A stretch of 64,000 bases of DNA from Haloarcula salinisoli (GCF_019599405.1 NZ_RKLQ01000006.1:1-64000); one strand, 5' to 3'; numbered from the stretch's first letter, positions 49,604 to 59,218 are shown. Program-made: numbers and translations. The notes: generated from the letters alone by a model not told the origin.

Positions 49604-50044
49604 TCACCGCACGGTGGCCTCGCCGACGGTCTCGGCGAATGCGACAGTTTCCTTGACGTCGGTTATCTCCACCTCGACTCTGTCGCCGGGTTTCGTGCCC
49701 GGAACGATGACGATGAACCCGCGCTCGACCTTGGCGATGCCGTCGCCCTGGTCGCCCAGCGTGTCGATGGAGACCGTGCGGACTTCGCCTTCCTCGACAG
49801 GTGGCCCCTGTTCGTGGGACGGGGCGGGGTCAGCCCGTGAGACGGAGGAGGGGGCCTCCTGGGCCGGGACTGTCTCCGTCTGTTCGTCCTCCTCGGCGGC
49901 CAGGAGCGCGACGCGGTATGACGTGCCCGTCTCGATGGAGCCGTTTTCGACGAGTTCAGGCGGGATAGCGACGGTGTAGCGGTCGCCCTCGTCTTCGACC
50001 GACGTCTCGAATAACAACCGAAGTGAATCAGATATTTCTGTCAT
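49604..50044 (-). CDS. TRAM domain protein
   Basis: 146 residues. VRTVSIDTLGDQGDGIAKVERG and PGTKPGDRVEVEITDVKETVAF form the TRAM beta-barrel, a nucleic-acid-binding fold. An acidic N-terminal half (TYRVALLAAEEDEQTETV, PSHEQGPPVEEG) precedes it. Archaeal TRAM proteins act as RNA chaperones. The gene is transcribed divergently from a sensor kinase. Confident domain, target RNA unknown. Confidence 0.85.
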   Translation of the reverse strand: MTEISDSLRLLFETSVEDEGDRYTVAIPPELVENGSIETGTSYRVALLAAEEDEQTETVPAQEAPSSVSRADPAPSHEQGPPVEEGEVRTVSIDTLGDQGDGIAKVERGFIVIVPGTKPGDRVEVEITDVKETVAFAETVGEATVR

Positions 50045-50217
50045 TGCCTCGTCTACGAACCCCAGGGCTAAATCCTACCGGAATCGTCCTGTATAATTCG
50101 ACTGGCCGTCACGTTCGGTTCGGGAACGCTCCGGACCCCGGTCTCTGGCCGGTCCCGATGTCAGCCGACGGCAAGGAACCCCGTGGTGTTTTTTCCGCGC
50201 GCTGTCTTGTCCGTGGT

Positions 50218-51939
50218 ATGGTCAGCTCACTACCACTGTGGCTCTGGTACGTGAGCATCCAGGTCGTCTCGGCGGCCCTCCTCGCCGCCACCGGATATCT
50301 CGTTTGCTCACAGCCCGAAGCACACCACCAGCGGGAGTTCGTGGCCTACGTCGCCGTCCAGGCGGTCTGGCTGCTGGTCGCAACCACGAAGTTCCTCGTC
50401 GGGCCGCCCGAACTCAAGTACGCCCTGAGCCTGCTGACCGACCTGCTGGCCCTGGGTGCCATCACGTCCATCGCTTACTTCGCGACGGTGTATACGAACC
50501 GCTCGCTCTCGCTCCGGCGTCCACAGAACGCGCTCTTCGTGGGGTGGCTGGTCGTCGCTGTCGGGAGCATCCTCACAGAGCCGCTGTTCGGGTTCCAGTA
50601 TGCCTCGGTTACCTACCACCAGGAGCCCATCGCGTATCTGGCTGTCACGCCCGGGCCAGCCTACCTGCTGGGTTCGGGGATGGCCGTCGCGGTTGTGCTG
50701 GTCAGTCTCGTCTACCTCACCAGGCTGTTCATCAGTTCGACCCACAGGCCGACCAGTTCGGTGCTGTTGCTGGTCGCCGCAGCGGTCGCCTCGTTCCTGC
50801 CTAATCTGGTGTCGACGCTCAATATCGTTCCGCTGCTGCCGGGCTATGATTACACGGTTTTCGGAATCGTCCCGTTGACCGTCATCCTGGGGTACACGGT
50901 CTTTTTCAGGGGCGAGCTCGATCTGGCTCCGATGGCCCGGGCCGAAATCGTCGACGATATCGACGACGTGTTGCTCGGGCTGGACGACGCGGGACGAGTC
51001 GTCGATTACAACGCCGCCGCCGGGCCCCTCCTCCCCGAGGACGTAGCCACTCCCGTCGGGACGGCGCTGTCGGAGCTGTTACCCGGTCTGGCCGCCGAGG
51101 TGCCCCTCCCGGAGGCCGGCGAGGACGACGTCTCGGCCACCTACACGACGGTCGTCGATGGCCGTCGAACCCATTACGCCGTGTCGGTATCGTCAATCGT
51201 CGAGCGTGGTACCGTCGCCGGCTACACGGTGGTCCTCCGGGACGTCACCGCGGTCGAACGGTCGAAGCGGGAGCTGCAACGCCAGAACGACCAGCTAGAG
51301 CAGTTCGCAAGTACCGTGGCTCACGACCTCCGGAACCCGCTCCAGGTCGCAGACGGCGCTGGAACCTTACTCCACGAGCAGCTCCAGGCCGCCGACGCGC
51401 CGGAGGCAGCCACCGCGGCTGACCACATCGACCGGGTGACCGGCGCGGTCGCCCGGATGGACGATAGACTGGACGAACTACAGACCCTCGCGAAACACGC
51501 CCAATCCGTGACCGAGACCGAGTCGGTGGAGTTCGGGGCGGCTGTCCGGGGGGCCTGGGACGAGGTCGACACCACGGATATGACCCTCGATGTCAGGTCT
51601 GGCGGGACTATCCAGGCCGAGCGTGGGCGGCTGGCCAGCGTCCTCGAACAGCTCGTCCGCCACAGCCGCGAGCGAGCAGCGGCCCGCGTCGAGGTCACAC
51701 TCACCGAGTCCGGGTTTACGTATCGGGACGACGGCCGACAGATTCCTGCGACAGAGCACACCGAACTGTTCGATTCCGACACGACCACCACCGCACAGGG
51801 TGTCGGGCTCGGGCTGGAAATCGTGCGGACACAGGTCGAGTCCCAGGGATGGTCGATATCCATAGAGCAAGCCGATGAGCGGACCGCATTCGTCGTCACC
51901 GGTGCCGAGACGACGGTAAAGACGGAGCCACGAGCATGA
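50218..51939 (+). CDS. 7TM sensor histidine kinase with degenerate ATP-binding domain
   Basis: 573 residues from the ATG at 50218; an upstream in-frame ATG-like start is less likely. Residues 1-230 form the seven-helix histidine-kinase N-terminal domain (WYVSIQVVSAALLAATGYLV at the start). A PAS-like middle part follows (VLLGLDDAGRVVDYNAAAGP). The H-box His369 is intact (VAHDLRNPLQ). The ATPase part lacks key residues: the N-box region is LEQLVRHSRERA instead of the Asn-rich form, and G1 is DDGRQIP instead of DGGGIP. The protein may dimerise but bind ATP poorly. Next gene overlaps by 4 bases. Confidence 0.85.
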   Translation: MVSSLPLWLWYVSIQVVSAALLAATGYLVCSQPEAHHQREFVAYVAVQAVWLLVATTKFLVGPPELKYALSLLTDLLALGAITSIAYFATVYTNRSLSLRRPQNALFVGWLVVAVGSILTEPLFGFQYASVTYHQEPIAYLAVTPGPAYLLGSGMAVAVVLVSLVYLTRLFISSTHRPTSSVLLLVAAAVASFLPNLVSTLNIVPLLPGYDYTVFGIVPLTVILGYTVFFRGELDLAPMARAEIVDDIDDVLLGLDDAGRVVDYNAAAGPLLPEDVATPVGTALSELLPGLAAEVPLPEAGEDDVSATYTTVVDGRRTHYAVSVSSIVERGTVAGYTVVLRDVTAVERSKRELQRQNDQLEQFASTVAHDLRNPLQVADGAGTLLHEQLQAADAPEAATAADHIDRVTGAVARMDDRLDELQTLAKHAQSVTETESVEFGAAVRGAWDEVDTTDMTLDVRSGGTIQAERGRLASVLEQLVRHSRERAAARVEVTLTESGFTYRDDGRQIPATEHTELFDSDTTTTAQGVGLGLEIVRTQVESQGWSISIEQADERTAFVVTGAETTVKTEPRA

Positions 51940-53768
51940 ACGGCTCGCCCCTTTCCCAGCCGGAGTACCATCCCATCATGGCGGCGTATGTCGGCCTCCT
52001 GGTCGCGACTATCGTCGTCCTCGCCCTGCTGAACGTGTGGGTCGTTCGTGGCCGGTCGACGTCTCGTATCCGGGCCGTCCTGCCGCTCCACACCGCCGCG
52101 ATGGTGTGGGCGGGCGTCGCCGCCCTCGAACTGCTCGTCGTCGACCCCACACTGGGCCGCTGGCTGGTGTATCTACGCACCGCCTGCTCCTATCTGACTG
52201 TGGTGCTTTTCGTCTACTTCGGGACGGTGTACAGCGGCCGCTCGACCTCGCTCAGACGACCGTTCAACGCCCTGTTCCTCGGTGGGATGGGTATCGGGTT
52301 CCTGGGGCTGGTGACCGACCCGTGGCTCGGGTTGCACTTCGACCCCCTGGTGCGTGCCACAGAGCCGTTCCCGTACTACCGCACTGGCTTCAGCCCCCTG
52401 TGGCAGTTCAGTTTCGTCTTATCGTACGTCGGAATCGCGATGTCGCTGTACTACCTGACGGAGCTGCTGGTCACCTCACAGCACCGGTCGCGCCGACCGC
52501 TGGTCGCCTACAGCCTCGGCATCCTGCTCGGACTCGTGCCCGGCGCAGTCACGTTCGTCGCCGAGGTACCGACACTGCCCGGGTACGACCACACCGTCCT
52601 CGGGCTCAGTATGGTCAGCGTGGGCACGTTCGTCGGTGCGTGGCTCGGGATGGTCGAAATCGCGCCCATCTCACGGGACCGGCTGCTCGAGACCTCCGGA
52701 GACGGGCTCGTTGTCTGTGACGACACCGGGACAGTCGTCGACCACAACGAGGAGGCCAGGACGTTTTTCACTGGCGAGAGAGCGCCCGTCGGGTCGCCGC
52801 TCGCGACGGTCGCACCCGCGCTGGCAGCGGCCCTCGACGATAGCGACGGGAGCGGGACTGCCTGGGACGACTCGGCCTCGGATACCGAGTTCACCCGGGA
52901 CGGGCGGTGGTACTCGGTGGTCATCTCGCCCGTGACCGACGGTGGGGCGGTCTCGGGGTCGGCACTGCTGGTACGGGACGTGACCGAACGCGTCGAGAAC
53001 CGGCGGGAGCTGCGGCGTCAGAACGAGCAACTCGACGAGTTCGCCAGCAGTGTCTCCCATCACCTTCGCAACCCGCTCCAGGTCGCCGCCGGGCAGACCG
53101 AACTGGCCCAGGACCGCCTCGGTGAGTCGCCGCCGGAGGATGTGGACATCGGCCGACTCGACGACCTCGATGGCGCACTCGACAGGATGGCAGCTATCAT
53201 CACGGACCTGCGGACACTCGCCGAACAGGGCAAGTCGGTCGAATCCACCGACTCCGTCCCGTTCGACGCGACGGTCCGGACCGCCTGGGCCCACGTCGAC
53301 ACCGGGAGCGCGACGCTGGCAATCGAGCGCGATGGGACGATAGCGGCCGAACAGAGCCGACTGCTCAGCATCCTGGAGAACCTCATCCAGAACAGTGTCG
53401 AGCACGGTTCGACGAGCAATCGGACCGAGTCCGATGACGCCGTCGAAGGCCATGGCCCCGATGCACGGGACGACCGGGACACAGCGGACACGGCCCTCAG
53501 CATCACGGTTCGTCTCACCGACGAGGGCTTCGTCTTCGAGGACGACGGGTGCGGTATCGACGCCGACCTCGACCGGCTGTTCGACTACGGCTACACCACC
53601 AGCAGCCAGGGGACCGGACTGGGGCTGTGCATCGTCCAGACGATGGTCCAGTCCCACGGCTGGTCGATACGGGTCGACCCCGACCACGACGGAGCCCGCT
53701 TCGTCGTCAGCGACGCGGTCACGAGCGTCGGGCCAGCAGAGGCTTCGGTGGCCTGGAATAAGCAGTGA
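51936..53768 (+). CDS. 7TM sensor histidine kinase, intact catalytic domain
   Basis: 610 residues, overlapping the previous kinase by 4 bases (ATGA). The seven-helix sensor domain starts MAAYVGLLVATIVVLALLNV. PAS-like part (LLETSGDGLVVCDDTGTVVDHN). H-box His375 in SVSHHLRNPLQ, N-box ILENLIQNSVEHG, G1 FEDDGCGIDADL and G2 SSQGTGLGLCIVQT are all standard. A paralog of the preceding kinase. The two could form a heterodimer in which this one supplies ATPase activity. Confidence 0.9.
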   Translation: MNGSPLSQPEYHPIMAAYVGLLVATIVVLALLNVWVVRGRSTSRIRAVLPLHTAAMVWAGVAALELLVVDPTLGRWLVYLRTACSYLTVVLFVYFGTVYSGRSTSLRRPFNALFLGGMGIGFLGLVTDPWLGLHFDPLVRATEPFPYYRTGFSPLWQFSFVLSYVGIAMSLYYLTELLVTSQHRSRRPLVAYSLGILLGLVPGAVTFVAEVPTLPGYDHTVLGLSMVSVGTFVGAWLGMVEIAPISRDRLLETSGDGLVVCDDTGTVVDHNEEARTFFTGERAPVGSPLATVAPALAAALDDSDGSGTAWDDSASDTEFTRDGRWYSVVISPVTDGGAVSGSALLVRDVTERVENRRELRRQNEQLDEFASSVSHHLRNPLQVAAGQTELAQDRLGESPPEDVDIGRLDDLDGALDRMAAIITDLRTLAEQGKSVESTDSVPFDATVRTAWAHVDTGSATLAIERDGTIAAEQSRLLSILENLIQNSVEHGSTSNRTESDDAVEGHGPDARDDRDTADTALSITVRLTDEGFVFEDDGCGIDADLDRLFDYGYTTSSQGTGLGLCIVQTMVQSHGWSIRVDPDHDGARFVVSDAVTSVGPAEASVAWNKQ

Positions 53769-55168: not shown

Positions 55169-55389
55169 GTGACTTCACGTCGGGCGGTACCAGTCGGGGT
55201 GGCAAAACAGTTAGCGATGGTGAGGCCTTGTAATTCAGGTACGTACCACCACGGAGCGTCCGTACCACACCGTAGAATCGCCAGGTTTCCGATTGAGAGT
55301 GGTTCACGCACCATTGGTTCCAGTATTTTGTTCGGCTAAATATCAATAATATAAAATGTCTTTGGTGGTACAACTCTCCGTCCACCCGC

Positions 55390-58041
55390 ATGGTCGATTT
55401 GACTCGACGGAATCTGCTTGCATCGTCGGTGGCAGCGGCACTGGGGGCCAGCGCGGTCGGGCTGGCCAGCGGTGACGAAGTCCCTGAGAGCGACACGCCG
55501 GGCGCGCCCAGCGTCCAGGGGTCACTGAAACGGTTCCTGACGACCGCCTACGGGGCCGAGGTGACGGGCCCGTTCGTCTTCGAGGATGGCGGGCTGCTGT
55601 ACAGCCTCCAGCACCCCAGCGAGGAGAACCCCGAGCCCTACGGTCGGGCGTCGGTCGGCTACTTCAGCGGCTTCCAGTTCGAGTTCGACGGGAGCAACGA
55701 CGATTTCACCGAAGTGGGCATCCCGGACACAGAGGAGAAACAGCGGGAGGTTCGCTCCGAGAGCGGCGACTACGAGACACTGTTCCAGGGCCGCGAGCCC
55801 ATCGGCGACGGGAGCGAGCGCCTCGGCGTCGTCCAGACGCCCGACGGAACCGATATCACCATGGACAACTTCGCCGGAACCCAGTACGGCGGCCCGGCCA
55901 CCAACCCGGACTGCAACCAGTTCGTCCCGACGAACGACGCGGGGACGGAGGGGTACCTGTTCACCAACTGGGAGAACAGCCCCGGCAACGTCACGCGGGT
56001 GTTCATCAGCCAGGACGGGGCGGGCGAGTGGCACGCCGACCTCGACGACGCGATGAACCTCGCGAACACCGACTCCCTGCGGGAGCTGGGCGGGACCCGA
56101 ATCAACTGCTACGGCGACCTGAGCCCGTGGGGGACGATGATATCCTCCGAGGAGAACTATGCCCACGCACGCGTCTCGCTGACGGCGACAGTCAGCGATA
56201 TCGTGGAGGCAGAGAGCGGGAAGGGTCTCATCGGTGGCTGCCAGTTCTGGAACCGACCGAACCCGACCGAGATTCAGAGCGCCGCCGAGGAGTACTTCGA
56301 CGACGCCGGGTTCATCCAGGGGTACTGGGCGCTCGACGGCGTCGAGTTCCTCGCCTACTACCTCGGCGCAGACCGGGTCGATCAGGCCGACGACAACGGG
56401 ACCAACACGACGAACCCCATCGGCGACGTCTACCCGAACCCCTACCGGTACGGCTACCACGTCGACTTCCGCGACCCGGCGGCCGACGAGCCCGAAGCGG
56501 TCAAATACTACGTGATGGGGCGGGCCTCGTGGGAGGCGCCGGACATCCAGGGCGACGAGCAGACCGTCTACGGCTGTTCCGACGGCGACAGCAAGGGTAT
56601 CTACAAGTTCGTCGCCGACGAGCCCATCCCGAGCTACGACGACACCGACGACATCGCGGGCACGCTGTACGCACCCAAGATAACGAACGATGCGGCCAAC
56701 GCCTCGGAGGCCGGCGAGCGAAACTCCCCGGCCCAGACACCGCTGGAAGTCGAGTGGCTGGAACTCGGCCACGCCACGAACGGCGAGATAGAATCGTGGA
56801 TTGCCGAGTACGACGATATCACCCAGGAAGACTATCTCGATACCCACGCCGAGACCGACTGGACCGAAGACCTCGCAACGGCCCTCGAAGAGGCCGACAG
56901 GGCGGTCATAGCGAACGGTAACCAGAACTACGTCACGAACGAGGAGATAGTCGAGTGGGCCCGGCAGTACGAGGCCGACGGCCCCGACAGCGTCGACGAG
57001 GAGCTCCGCCGCGTTCCCTTCATCGAGACCCGCGCCGCCGCGAAGGAGATCGGCGCCTCCGTCGAGTTCAACAAGGCCGAAGGCGTCGACTCTGTCGACG
57101 ACTCCGAGCCCGGCGACTTCGTCTACTTCGGCATCTCTGAGTTCAACGACGACCTTGCGAACGACGAGGGCGACATCCAGCTGGACCGCGTCGACGGCGG
57201 CGTCGTCTACCGCGCGGAGCTCGAACGGGACTACAACGTCTCGACGCTCGAACCGGTCATCACCGGGCCGGACTTCACCGACAGCCCCGCCGACGCCGAC
57301 GACGCCCTGCGCAACATCGACAACGTCTACACGATGCGTGACGGCCGCGTCATCTGCTGTGAGGACGGCTTTGGCGGCCCCGCCCGCTCGTACCCCAACG
57401 ACGGGCTCTACGTCTTCCAGCCCGACGTGCTGGTCGACGTCGACGCCGTCGCAGTCGGCAACGGCGCGACGGGGACCGCGGCGCTCTCGGCCTCCGCGCT
57501 CCCGTCGGGCTTTTCGGGTGCCCGCATCACCGTCTCGGTGAGTGACCCCGACGTGGCAACGATAACCGGGGTGTCGTTCCCTGAGGCACTCGGGCTCACC
57601 GAAGCAACCGTCAGCGACGACGGCGACAGCGCGACCATCCGCGTCACGGACACCGAGGACGAAATTGGCGCAGGTGGCCTCGACGTCATCCTCGCGACAC
57701 TGACAGTGCGTGGCGATGGCACCGGAACGACGGATATCACCGTCGAGGTCGACCAGATGGACGACGACGCCGGCTCGGCGATAGACGCCGAGGCCCGCGA
57801 GGGCGTGCTGGTCACCGGCCCGCCGCCGGTCGATGGCGACGCCACCCCCACTGACCCCGACGACGACGGGCGCTACGAGGACCTCAACGGCAACGGGCGA
57901 CTGGACTACGCGGACATCCAGCTCCTGTTCGAGAACTTCGACCGCGACAGCGTCCGCCTGAACAAGACCGCCTACGACTTCAACGAGAACGGTCGGCTGG
58001 ACTTCGACGACGTCGTCGACCTCTACGAGGACGTCAACTGA
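55390..58041 (+). CDS. Tat-exported PhoX-like phosphatase with cohesin-like and dockerin modules
   Basis: 883 residues. The signal has the twin-arginine motif TRRNLLASSVAAALGAS. Residues about 30-670 are a PhoX-like (DUF839) beta-propeller: LSPWGTMISSEENYAHARV is the metal-site segment, and GTEGYLFTNWENSPGNVTRV belongs to the same fold. Residues about 679-815 are cohesin-like beta strands. Two Ca2+-binding repeats follow: DLNGNGRLDYADIQLLFENF (from 831) and DFNENGRLDFDDVVDLYEDV (from 863), a type I dockerin. It probably cleaves phosphate esters outside the cell. A cohesin-like gene follows 56 bases later. Confidence 0.85.
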   Translation: MVDLTRRNLLASSVAAALGASAVGLASGDEVPESDTPGAPSVQGSLKRFLTTAYGAEVTGPFVFEDGGLLYSLQHPSEENPEPYGRASVGYFSGFQFEFDGSNDDFTEVGIPDTEEKQREVRSESGDYETLFQGREPIGDGSERLGVVQTPDGTDITMDNFAGTQYGGPATNPDCNQFVPTNDAGTEGYLFTNWENSPGNVTRVFISQDGAGEWHADLDDAMNLANTDSLRELGGTRINCYGDLSPWGTMISSEENYAHARVSLTATVSDIVEAESGKGLIGGCQFWNRPNPTEIQSAAEEYFDDAGFIQGYWALDGVEFLAYYLGADRVDQADDNGTNTTNPIGDVYPNPYRYGYHVDFRDPAADEPEAVKYYVMGRASWEAPDIQGDEQTVYGCSDGDSKGIYKFVADEPIPSYDDTDDIAGTLYAPKITNDAANASEAGERNSPAQTPLEVEWLELGHATNGEIESWIAEYDDITQEDYLDTHAETDWTEDLATALEEADRAVIANGNQNYVTNEEIVEWARQYEADGPDSVDEELRRVPFIETRAAAKEIGASVEFNKAEGVDSVDDSEPGDFVYFGISEFNDDLANDEGDIQLDRVDGGVVYRAELERDYNVSTLEPVITGPDFTDSPADADDALRNIDNVYTMRDGRVICCEDGFGGPARSYPNDGLYVFQPDVLVDVDAVAVGNGATGTAALSASALPSGFSGARITVSVSDPDVATITGVSFPEALGLTEATVSDDGDSATIRVTDTEDEIGAGGLDVILATLTVRGDGTGTTDITVEVDQMDDDAGSAIDAEAREGVLVTGPPPVDGDATPTDPDDDGRYEDLNGNGRLDYADIQLLFENFDRDSVRLNKTAYDFNENGRLDFDDVVDLYEDVN

Positions 58042-58097
58042 GAGGGCCACAGACAGTTGGACCGGCGTCTGAACATCACTATTTGTTCCAACCCCAC

Positions 58098-58763
58098 ATG
58101 ACACATCGACAGCCGATACCGACCCTCACAGCCGTGCTCGTCGCCGTTGTGGTTCTCGCGGCAGTGTCGGGCGCCGGCGCTGCGGCACAGACCGACGACC
58201 CCGGAGTCAGAGTCACCGACGGGACGACGACTTCCGGCGGAAACACTACAGTCGGCGTGGTACTCACGTCGGCCCCGAACGGCCTCTCGGGCTACTATCT
58301 CGACCTCACGGTACAGTCGCCAGAGGGGGCTCGCGTGGTCAACGCCAGCTACCCCGACCAGTTCGGACTGACAACGGCACCGGCGTACAGCGAGGACGGC
58401 ACCACCGTCACAGTCGAAGCGGCCGACGTGAACGACGTCGTCGAGCCCGGTGCGGCCGACATACAGCTCGCGACGGTCGAGATAGCCGGCGGGACCCCCG
58501 GCGACCTGGCGGTTGGCGTCGAGCCGCGGCAGTTCGACGACGACGATGGAGAGTCGTTCCAGCCCGCCCAGGTGAGCGACGAGACCCCGACGACCGAACC
58601 AGATACGCCGACCACCAGCACTGGTCCCGAGCCCACCGACGGACAGGGAGCCGCGAACGGCTCGGCGACGGCCTCCGGCGGAAGCGGCCCGCTCTCACCG
58701 GCGCTGGTCGTGGGCGCGGTCGCCCTGCTGGTCGGTGTCTGGTTTCGGCGGAGCGAGGCGTAG
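58098..58763 (+). CDS. Membrane-anchored cohesin-like surface protein
   Basis: 221 residues from the ATG at 58098. A Sec signal (LTAVLVAVVVLAAVSGAGAA) precedes a cohesin-like beta module (GVRVTDGTTTSGGNTTVGVV, SGYYLDLTVQSPEGARVVNA, ADIQLATVEIAGGTP). A Thr/Pro/Ser-rich linker (TPTTEPDTPTTSTGPEP) follows, then a C-terminal helix LVVGAVALLVGVWFRRSEA that anchors it to the membrane. The layout fits a surface scaffold able to hold a dockerin partner, such as the phosphatase encoded just upstream. Pairing is inferred. Confidence 0.72.
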   Translation: MTHRQPIPTLTAVLVAVVVLAAVSGAGAAAQTDDPGVRVTDGTTTSGGNTTVGVVLTSAPNGLSGYYLDLTVQSPEGARVVNASYPDQFGLTTAPAYSEDGTTVTVEAADVNDVVEPGAADIQLATVEIAGGTPGDLAVGVEPRQFDDDDGESFQPAQVSDETPTTEPDTPTTSTGPEPTDGQGAANGSATASGGSGPLSPALVVGAVALLVGVWFRRSEA

Positions 58764-58789: not shown

Positions 58790-59218
58790 ATGTCACGAAG
58801 CCACCACCAGACTGACGGCACAGACGGCACCGAATCGATGTATCGAACGCACATCCTCGACGTGCGAATCGTCGAGGCGAGCGGCTCCGACGGCGAGACA
58901 GTCTACCGGTTCGAGGCTCCCCACCACCGGGGTATCGAGTTCGAGGACCCCGACAGCGCGTCGCTGTACGCCGACGTCTACTTCGACGTCAACGGGTTTC
59001 AGGAGGACGGTACTGGCCATCGGGGTGTCCCGCCGAAAATCATCCAGGCCGGCCGGGACACACTGGTCGCGTACTTCATGACCCAGCCCGACATCGACGA
59101 GAACTGGGTGGCGTCGTACTACGGGGAGAAACCGGAGAAGGTGACCCGGTACGTCACCCGGGTGCGCAAGCGCGCGAGGAGGATACGTGAGGGCGTCAGA
59201 GAACGGGGCCACGAGTAG
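58790..59218 (+). CDS. Hypothetical haloarchaeal protein
   Basis: 142 residues. HILDVRIVEASGSDGETVYRF, PHHRGIEFEDPDSASLYADV and KPEKVTRYVTRVRKRARRIRE are the visible parts; a flexible Asp/Thr-rich N-terminus precedes them. The C-terminus is basic and may bind nucleic acid. An internal ATG at 58838 could be the real start. No family recognised; convergent with the next small gene. Confidence 0.55.
   Translation: MSRSHHQTDGTDGTESMYRTHILDVRIVEASGSDGETVYRFEAPHHRGIEFEDPDSASLYADVYFDVNGFQEDGTGHRGVPPKIIQAGRDTLVAYFMTQPDIDENWVASYYGEKPEKVTRYVTRVRKRARRIREGVRERGHE

Follow-up and report, generated by a model that had tools for sequence, protein, structure and literature searches.

Does a haloarchaeal phosphatase that ends in a dockerin find its partner in the product of the next gene? 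The question is raised by a locus of Haloarcula salinisoli, in the 64,000-nucleotide stretch of DNA analysed here (the window), for which a first-pass annotation had described a PhoX-like enzyme ending in a cohesin-like module and a dockerin with two repeats, followed by a gene for a membrane-anchored cohesin-like protein, and had suggested that the two might form a surface assembly resembling a small cellulosome. Our analysis bears out the domains of both products and the extent of the two genes, 55390-58763 (Table 1), and predicts from sequence that the pair probably constitutes a two-gene surface-display cassette, in which the dockerin would tether PhoX to the membrane by binding the anchored cohesin.

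Table 1. Features of the phoX-Coh-Doc locus, in window coordinates
Feature	Position	Strand	Basis
phoX-Coh-Doc gene	55390..58041	+	ORF, 883 aa; PF05787, E = 1.5e-19
Tat-type signal peptide, MVDLTRRNLLASSVAAALGASAVGLASG	55390..55473	+	twin-arginine motif in sequence; hydrophobic aa 9-26
PhoX catalytic domain, about aa 41-663	55510..57378	+	PF05787; alignment with PDB 3zwu/4amf
Internal cohesin module of PhoX (predicted fold), aa 682-811	57433..57822	+	AlphaFold model against solved cohesins, best E 4.0e-10
Dockerin, aa 816-883	57835..58038	+	Ca-loops aa 831-842 (57880-57915) and aa 863-874 (57976-58011)
Anchored cohesin gene	58098..58763	+	ORF, 221 aa; kept 3' of PhoX-Coh-Doc in 46/48 genomes
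Sec-type signal peptide, about aa 1-30	58098..58187	+	hydrophobic aa 7-24, mean 2.47
Cohesin module of anchored protein (predicted fold), about aa 37-158	58206..58571	+	AlphaFold; PDB matches; hhalign
Thr/Pro/Asp-rich linker of anchored protein	58572..58691	+	sequence reading
C-terminal membrane anchor (TM aa 199-216, then RRSEA)	58692..58760	+	hydropathy 2.24

Read from the N to the C terminus, the first gene product consists of a Tat-type signal, a PhoX catalytic domain, a cohesin-like module and a pair of EF-hands. The signal reads MVDLTRRNLLASS, with a TRRNLL motif whose arginines R6 and R7 are kept in at least 97% of 47 aligned PhoX sequences. PF05787 covers residues 221-663 (E = 1.5e-19; 71 bits against a Pfam cut-off of 24), and in combining a score above this cut-off with a Tat-type signal the protein qualifies as a PhoX. 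Cys240 and Glu255 align to chain positions 179 and 194 of PDB 3zwu, the two positions of the Fe/Ca ligand set that were compared; a thiolate ligand of the iron has been reported for PhoX, and for PhoX and PhoD alike export by Tat has been discussed as a means of loading iron beforehand (PMC4223295). Full-length orthologues are 57-83% identical, and the closest homologues of the window genes are found in Haloarcula and other Halobacteria. The protein resembles the PhoX alkaline phosphatase (PF05787; PDB 3zwu) in its catalytic domain, its Tat-type signal and its conserved Cys and Glu positions, but differs from it in the added cohesin-dockerin tail and in having a partner gene.

The partner gene follows phoX after a gap of 56 bp, most likely starting at the ATG at 58098 rather than at an upstream TTG at 58083. 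As first proposed, its product reads as a membrane-anchored cohesin-like protein, with a signal segment, a module of predicted cohesin fold, and a transmembrane segment followed by two arginines; a matching C-terminal segment was found in its orthologues. The PGF-CTERM motif gave no match at the C terminus of the window protein and weak matches, under the cut-off, in some orthologues. Pfam and NCBIfam searches with the whole protein returned no match, and nanobodies returned by a PDB sequence search had E values of 1 or more and were set aside as chance. One public record annotates the partner as a hypothetical protein, so that the system is easily missed.

Both cohesin-like modules have the cohesin fold according to their AlphaFold models, in which the internal core has a pLDDT of mostly 86-95 and the anchored module a pLDDT of 83 and a pTM of 0.79. 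Foldseek comparison of these models returned almost exclusively solved cohesins of types I, II and III, with the Archaeoglobus fulgidus cohesin 2xdh among the best structural matches of the anchored module. The two modules are 35% identical to each other (E = 5e-16). The Pfam cohesin model PF00963 detected neither of them; among homologues it matched four of 21 internal modules (best 5.4e-6) and, weakly, five of 21 anchored proteins (best 0.0034), and the anchored protein of another genome (G019) gave a Cohesin match of 1.5e-4 in the genome search. When aligned haloarchaeal cohesins, most of them recognised by Pfam, served as reference, hhalign gave 88.7% (E = 2.6e-6). The cohesin profile, searched against PDB sequences, returned sliding clamps at chance level, which were discounted, and one weak cohesin match; the corresponding search with a profile of cohesin plus dockerin gave no match.

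The dockerin of the window PhoX is supported as real by its sequence and by its relatives. Its two repeats carry the Ca-binding loops DLNGNGRLDYAD at residue 831 and DFNENGRLDFDD at residue 863. PF00404 (Dockerin_1) scores the window region below its curated cut-off (E = 0.0047; 17.5 bits against 22.9), and EF-hand models score about as well, but the same model matches 19 of 21 homologous tails (best 3.7e-10). Profile comparison (hhalign) of the tails with haloarchaeal dockerins, for the most part Pfam-positive, gave 98.5% (E = 1.6e-15), the Clostridium thermocellum CelS dockerin is among the best PDB sequence matches of the window dockerin, and other haloarchaeal cohesin-dockerin pairs do pass the curated Pfam cut-offs. 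The first-pass label of a type I dockerin rests on this dockerin similarity; the cohesin matches spread over three types. Structure prediction, which had been proposed as a check, matched both cohesin-like modules to solved cohesins and left the dockerin at low confidence: the AlphaFold model of cohesin plus dockerin contains no confident dockerin (pLDDT about 44-62 by block), and docking within the chain is therefore not claimed.

Weak Pfam scores, and the term enigmatic vestige once applied to the A. fulgidus copies in the title of reference 167 of PMC9012536, could suggest that the domains are vestiges of an older cohesin-dockerin system whose interaction has been lost. Such a history is very improbable: the dockerin is conserved as well as the catalytic domain (mean identity 69% for each), with 21 of 68 columns invariant across 43 cassettes, and thus is not decaying, and the anchored cohesin has been kept in nearly every genome that has PhoX-Coh-Doc.

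This retention was measured in an order-wide search of 243 genomes, with counts taken from the strongest full-length matches, among which PhoX-Coh-Doc occurs in 48 genomes and has an adjoining anchored cohesin in 46 of them (in one of the 46, G218, as a short cohesin frame without visible anchor). Among 47 distinct PhoX sequences, a count that excludes fragments and the contig-edge genes L017 and L042, the anchored cohesin gene lies directly 3' of all 26 that bear a dockerin and of none of the 21 that do not. On the PhoX tree the dockerin is gained or lost at least four times, and dockerin and anchored cohesin change jointly in four of four independent pairs, too few for significance (sign test, p = 0.125). 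Conservation of the pair across haloarchaeal families is far beyond chance. Since dockerin and anchored cohesin lie side by side, a single deletion or transfer could affect the two at once, so their co-occurrence supports one functional unit and is no proof of binding.

The two exceptions, L200 (G085) and L201 (G070), belong to one genus and keep PhoX-Coh-Doc without an anchored cohesin gene, which counts against tethering, though their first dockerin loop has drifted to EVDDED from the usual RLDY.D (NGDSEVDDED / NGDGEVDDED) and in L200 has also lost a glycine. In L200 the gene after PhoX encodes a 148-aa homologue of the gene downstream of the window cassette, which at 58790-59218 encodes a 142-aa protein of unknown family. 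Tail-less PhoX relatives mostly have short or low-complexity C-terminal tails. In one (L026) the tail is replaced by an anchor resembling PGF-CTERM, which scores slightly below the cut-off, and in another (L058) the PhoX frame is broken and PGF-CTERM scores over the cut-off after the fragments; in a few relatives, it seems, PhoX is anchored directly at its C terminus, and such ends, judged by their motif, may be the functional equivalent of cohesin-dockerin tethering.

Similar pairs occur around other enzymes. Each of the three dockerin genes found in the source genome (G000) adjoins a cohesin gene. The second of them (C1, L067:4757-6663) encodes a 408-aa Tat-type metallophosphoesterase with a terminal dockerin, directly followed by a gene for a 226-aa anchored cohesin; it resembles the window pair in its phosphoesterase-like cargo and in this arrangement, but has no detected internal cohesin, a cohesin of another group and a different enzyme family. 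The third (C7, L068:2538-8412) encodes a VWA/TSP3 protein of 1645 aa, whose dockerin lies close to the N terminus (aa 110-161), and is divergent from the gene of a 285-aa anchored cohesin-like protein. Elsewhere, metallophosphoesterase-dockerin genes adjoin anchored cohesins in L106 and L107, and subtilases with internal cohesin and dockerin are followed by a small anchored cohesin in L115, L118, L132, L133, L136 and L137; the latter differ from the window pair in their S8 protease cargo with CarboxypepD_reg (CARDB in some) and in their cohesins, which fall in another tree group and are often recognised by Pfam. By eye, a GH3-like enzyme of the same genus (G014, L215:3598-6751) has an apparent half dockerin and an adjoining gene for an anchored cohesin, whose C terminus is PGF-CTERM-like. 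Far from being rare, as had been supposed, such pairs of a dockerin protein with an anchored cohesin are common among haloarchaea; their cargo is often a subtilase, and in other cases a metallophosphoesterase or PhoX.

The weak and ambiguous domain scores of the window dockerin, and the description of the dockerin of haloarchaeal hydrolases as a substrate-binding aid (PMC10963439; PMC13260240), might instead indicate that the EF-hands bind Ca to stabilise the protein, or form a substrate-binding tail, and have nothing to do with the cohesin-like protein encoded beside them. This we consider improbable, as it leaves unexplained the co-occurrence of dockerin and anchored cohesin (26/26 against 0/21), the adjacency in the source genome (3/3) and the cohesin fold predicted for the neighbour.

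From the domains, their folds and order, their conservation and their co-occurrence, which the analysis shows, we infer binding, choice of partner, surface location and a role in phosphate scavenging, as follows. PhoX would fold in the cytoplasm, take up Fe and Ca and leave by the Tat route, as its signal and family suggest. The small partner protein would be exported by means of its own signal peptide, stay in the membrane by way of its C-terminal helix and display its cohesin on a flexible linker rich in Thr and Pro. This anchored cohesin would be bound in a Ca-dependent manner by the dockerin that ends PhoX, so that the phosphatase would stay at the cell surface and free phosphate from organic phosphates in the immediate vicinity of the cell. 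Another PhoX, or a second phosphatase with a like tail, may dock to the internal cohesin of PhoX as a further binding site.

Comparative genomics thus favours a surface-tethered phosphatase as the best reading of the surface assembly first suggested; the comparison with a small cellulosome was too strong. As in the clostridial cellulosome, the enzyme bears a dockerin and a surface protein bears a cohesin. The window system differs in having a phosphatase as cargo, one cohesin per anchor, and neither a multi-cohesin scaffoldin nor a carbohydrate-binding module at the locus. All cohesin proteins found in the source genome have a single cohesin, so that it has no multi-cohesin scaffoldin; none of the three dockerin proteins found there is a polysaccharide-degrading enzyme, and a search of these three for carbohydrate-binding modules gave no match.

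Preference of the dockerin for the anchored cohesin is suggested, on sequence grounds, by the dockerin proteins that adjoin an anchored cohesin and have no detected internal one (L067, L106, L107 and L142), which points to the anchored cohesin as partner of the dockerin, and by the PhoX of Haloarcula pellucida (L040), which keeps its internal cohesin but has no dockerin and no anchored cohesin beside it. The dockerin might alternatively bind mainly the internal cohesin, either its own or that of another PhoX-type molecule, to give closed forms or chains and leave the anchored cohesin no role beyond capping or anchoring the first unit. Internal cohesin and dockerin share one chain in every PhoX cassette, and tandem PhoX-Coh-Doc genes do occur, with a single cohesin gene downstream (L212, L213). 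In a mirror-tree comparison dockerin divergence is also coupled most tightly to the internal cohesin (partial r 0.81, against 0.68 for the anchored cohesin), but such coupling is expected anyway within one gene, and neither candidate partner can be singled out from the correlations. Within the PhoX family the internal cohesins group apart from the anchored ones, which suggests distinct roles; with this separation, the pairs without a detected internal cohesin and the joint absence in H. pellucida, we regard predominant binding to the internal cohesin as possible but rather unlikely.

The cohesin-dockerin tail of PhoX is also found on PhoD phosphatases (G008, G009, G018, G021, G216 and G227) and, in G216, on a 5'-nucleotidase. 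PhoX and PhoD are both tailed in G008, G009, G018 and G021, and in G216 PhoX, PhoD and 5'-nucleotidase all have a tail of identical type (L204:3467-6097, L202:4014-6215 and L190). An anchored cohesin gene adjoins only phoX in G216, and none adjoins the PhoD-Coh-Doc and 5'-nucleotidase-Coh-Doc genes. The internal cohesins of the tailed phosphatases constitute one tree group (95* support), apart from the anchored cohesins of PhoX cassettes. A speculative extension is that these unrelated phosphatases acquired one tail and assemble on, and chain from, the anchored cohesin encoded beside phoX, as a 'phosphatasome'; its probability is rather low. The genome of G227, an assembly in about 170 contigs, has PhoD-Coh-Doc and yielded no other cohesin of the PhoX-cassette type, which, allowing for fragmentation, counts against obligatory sharing.

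Binding between archaeal cohesins and dockerins is described as verified (PMC9012536), an A. fulgidus pair serves as a tool for display (PMC9705933), and a dockerin-bearing subtilase of Halobacterium was noted in 2008 (PMC2605481). The domains and the principle of the pair are therefore already known. In A. fulgidus the genes are neighbours, one encoding a cohesin and a dockerin and the next a cohesin. These noncellulosomal proteins share the archaeal cohesin fold (2xdh) with the window modules, and differ in that the cargo here is PhoX, the second protein is predicted to be anchored at its C terminus and the cassette is kept across haloarchaeal families. Our literature search, in a limited collection, found no paper that joins haloarchaea, cohesin and dockerin in the sense of pairing; within the limits of that literature the phosphatase cargo, the conservation of the cassette and the tail common to three phosphatase families look new. 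The cassette suggests a concrete and testable role for archaeal cohesins and dockerins, the anchoring of exported enzymes in trans through a partner whose gene lies beside their own. Dockerins on haloarchaeal hydrolases may accordingly be surface tethers rather than the substrate-binding elements of recent papers, and the conserved pairs are a source of many candidate binding modules for high salt.

Up to five cohesins have been described in ANME archaea (PMC9012536); in L109:6566-10339 (G111:C1) an anchored, scaffoldin-like protein of 1258 aa has eight cohesins (Pfam, 3.2e-49), with several subtilase-Coh-Doc genes around it (see also L143). In the window, two overlapping tandem ORFs at 50023-53768, with the motifs HDLRNPLQV and HHLRNPLQV, look like membrane sensor histidine kinases. 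About 88 bp 5' of the PhoX start, at 55301-55310, lies GGTTCACGCA, and a similar GTTCACA is found at the same distance in L002; the GTTCAC motif is not general among orthologues and was dropped as a phosphate box, and the window site is possibly a regulatory site.
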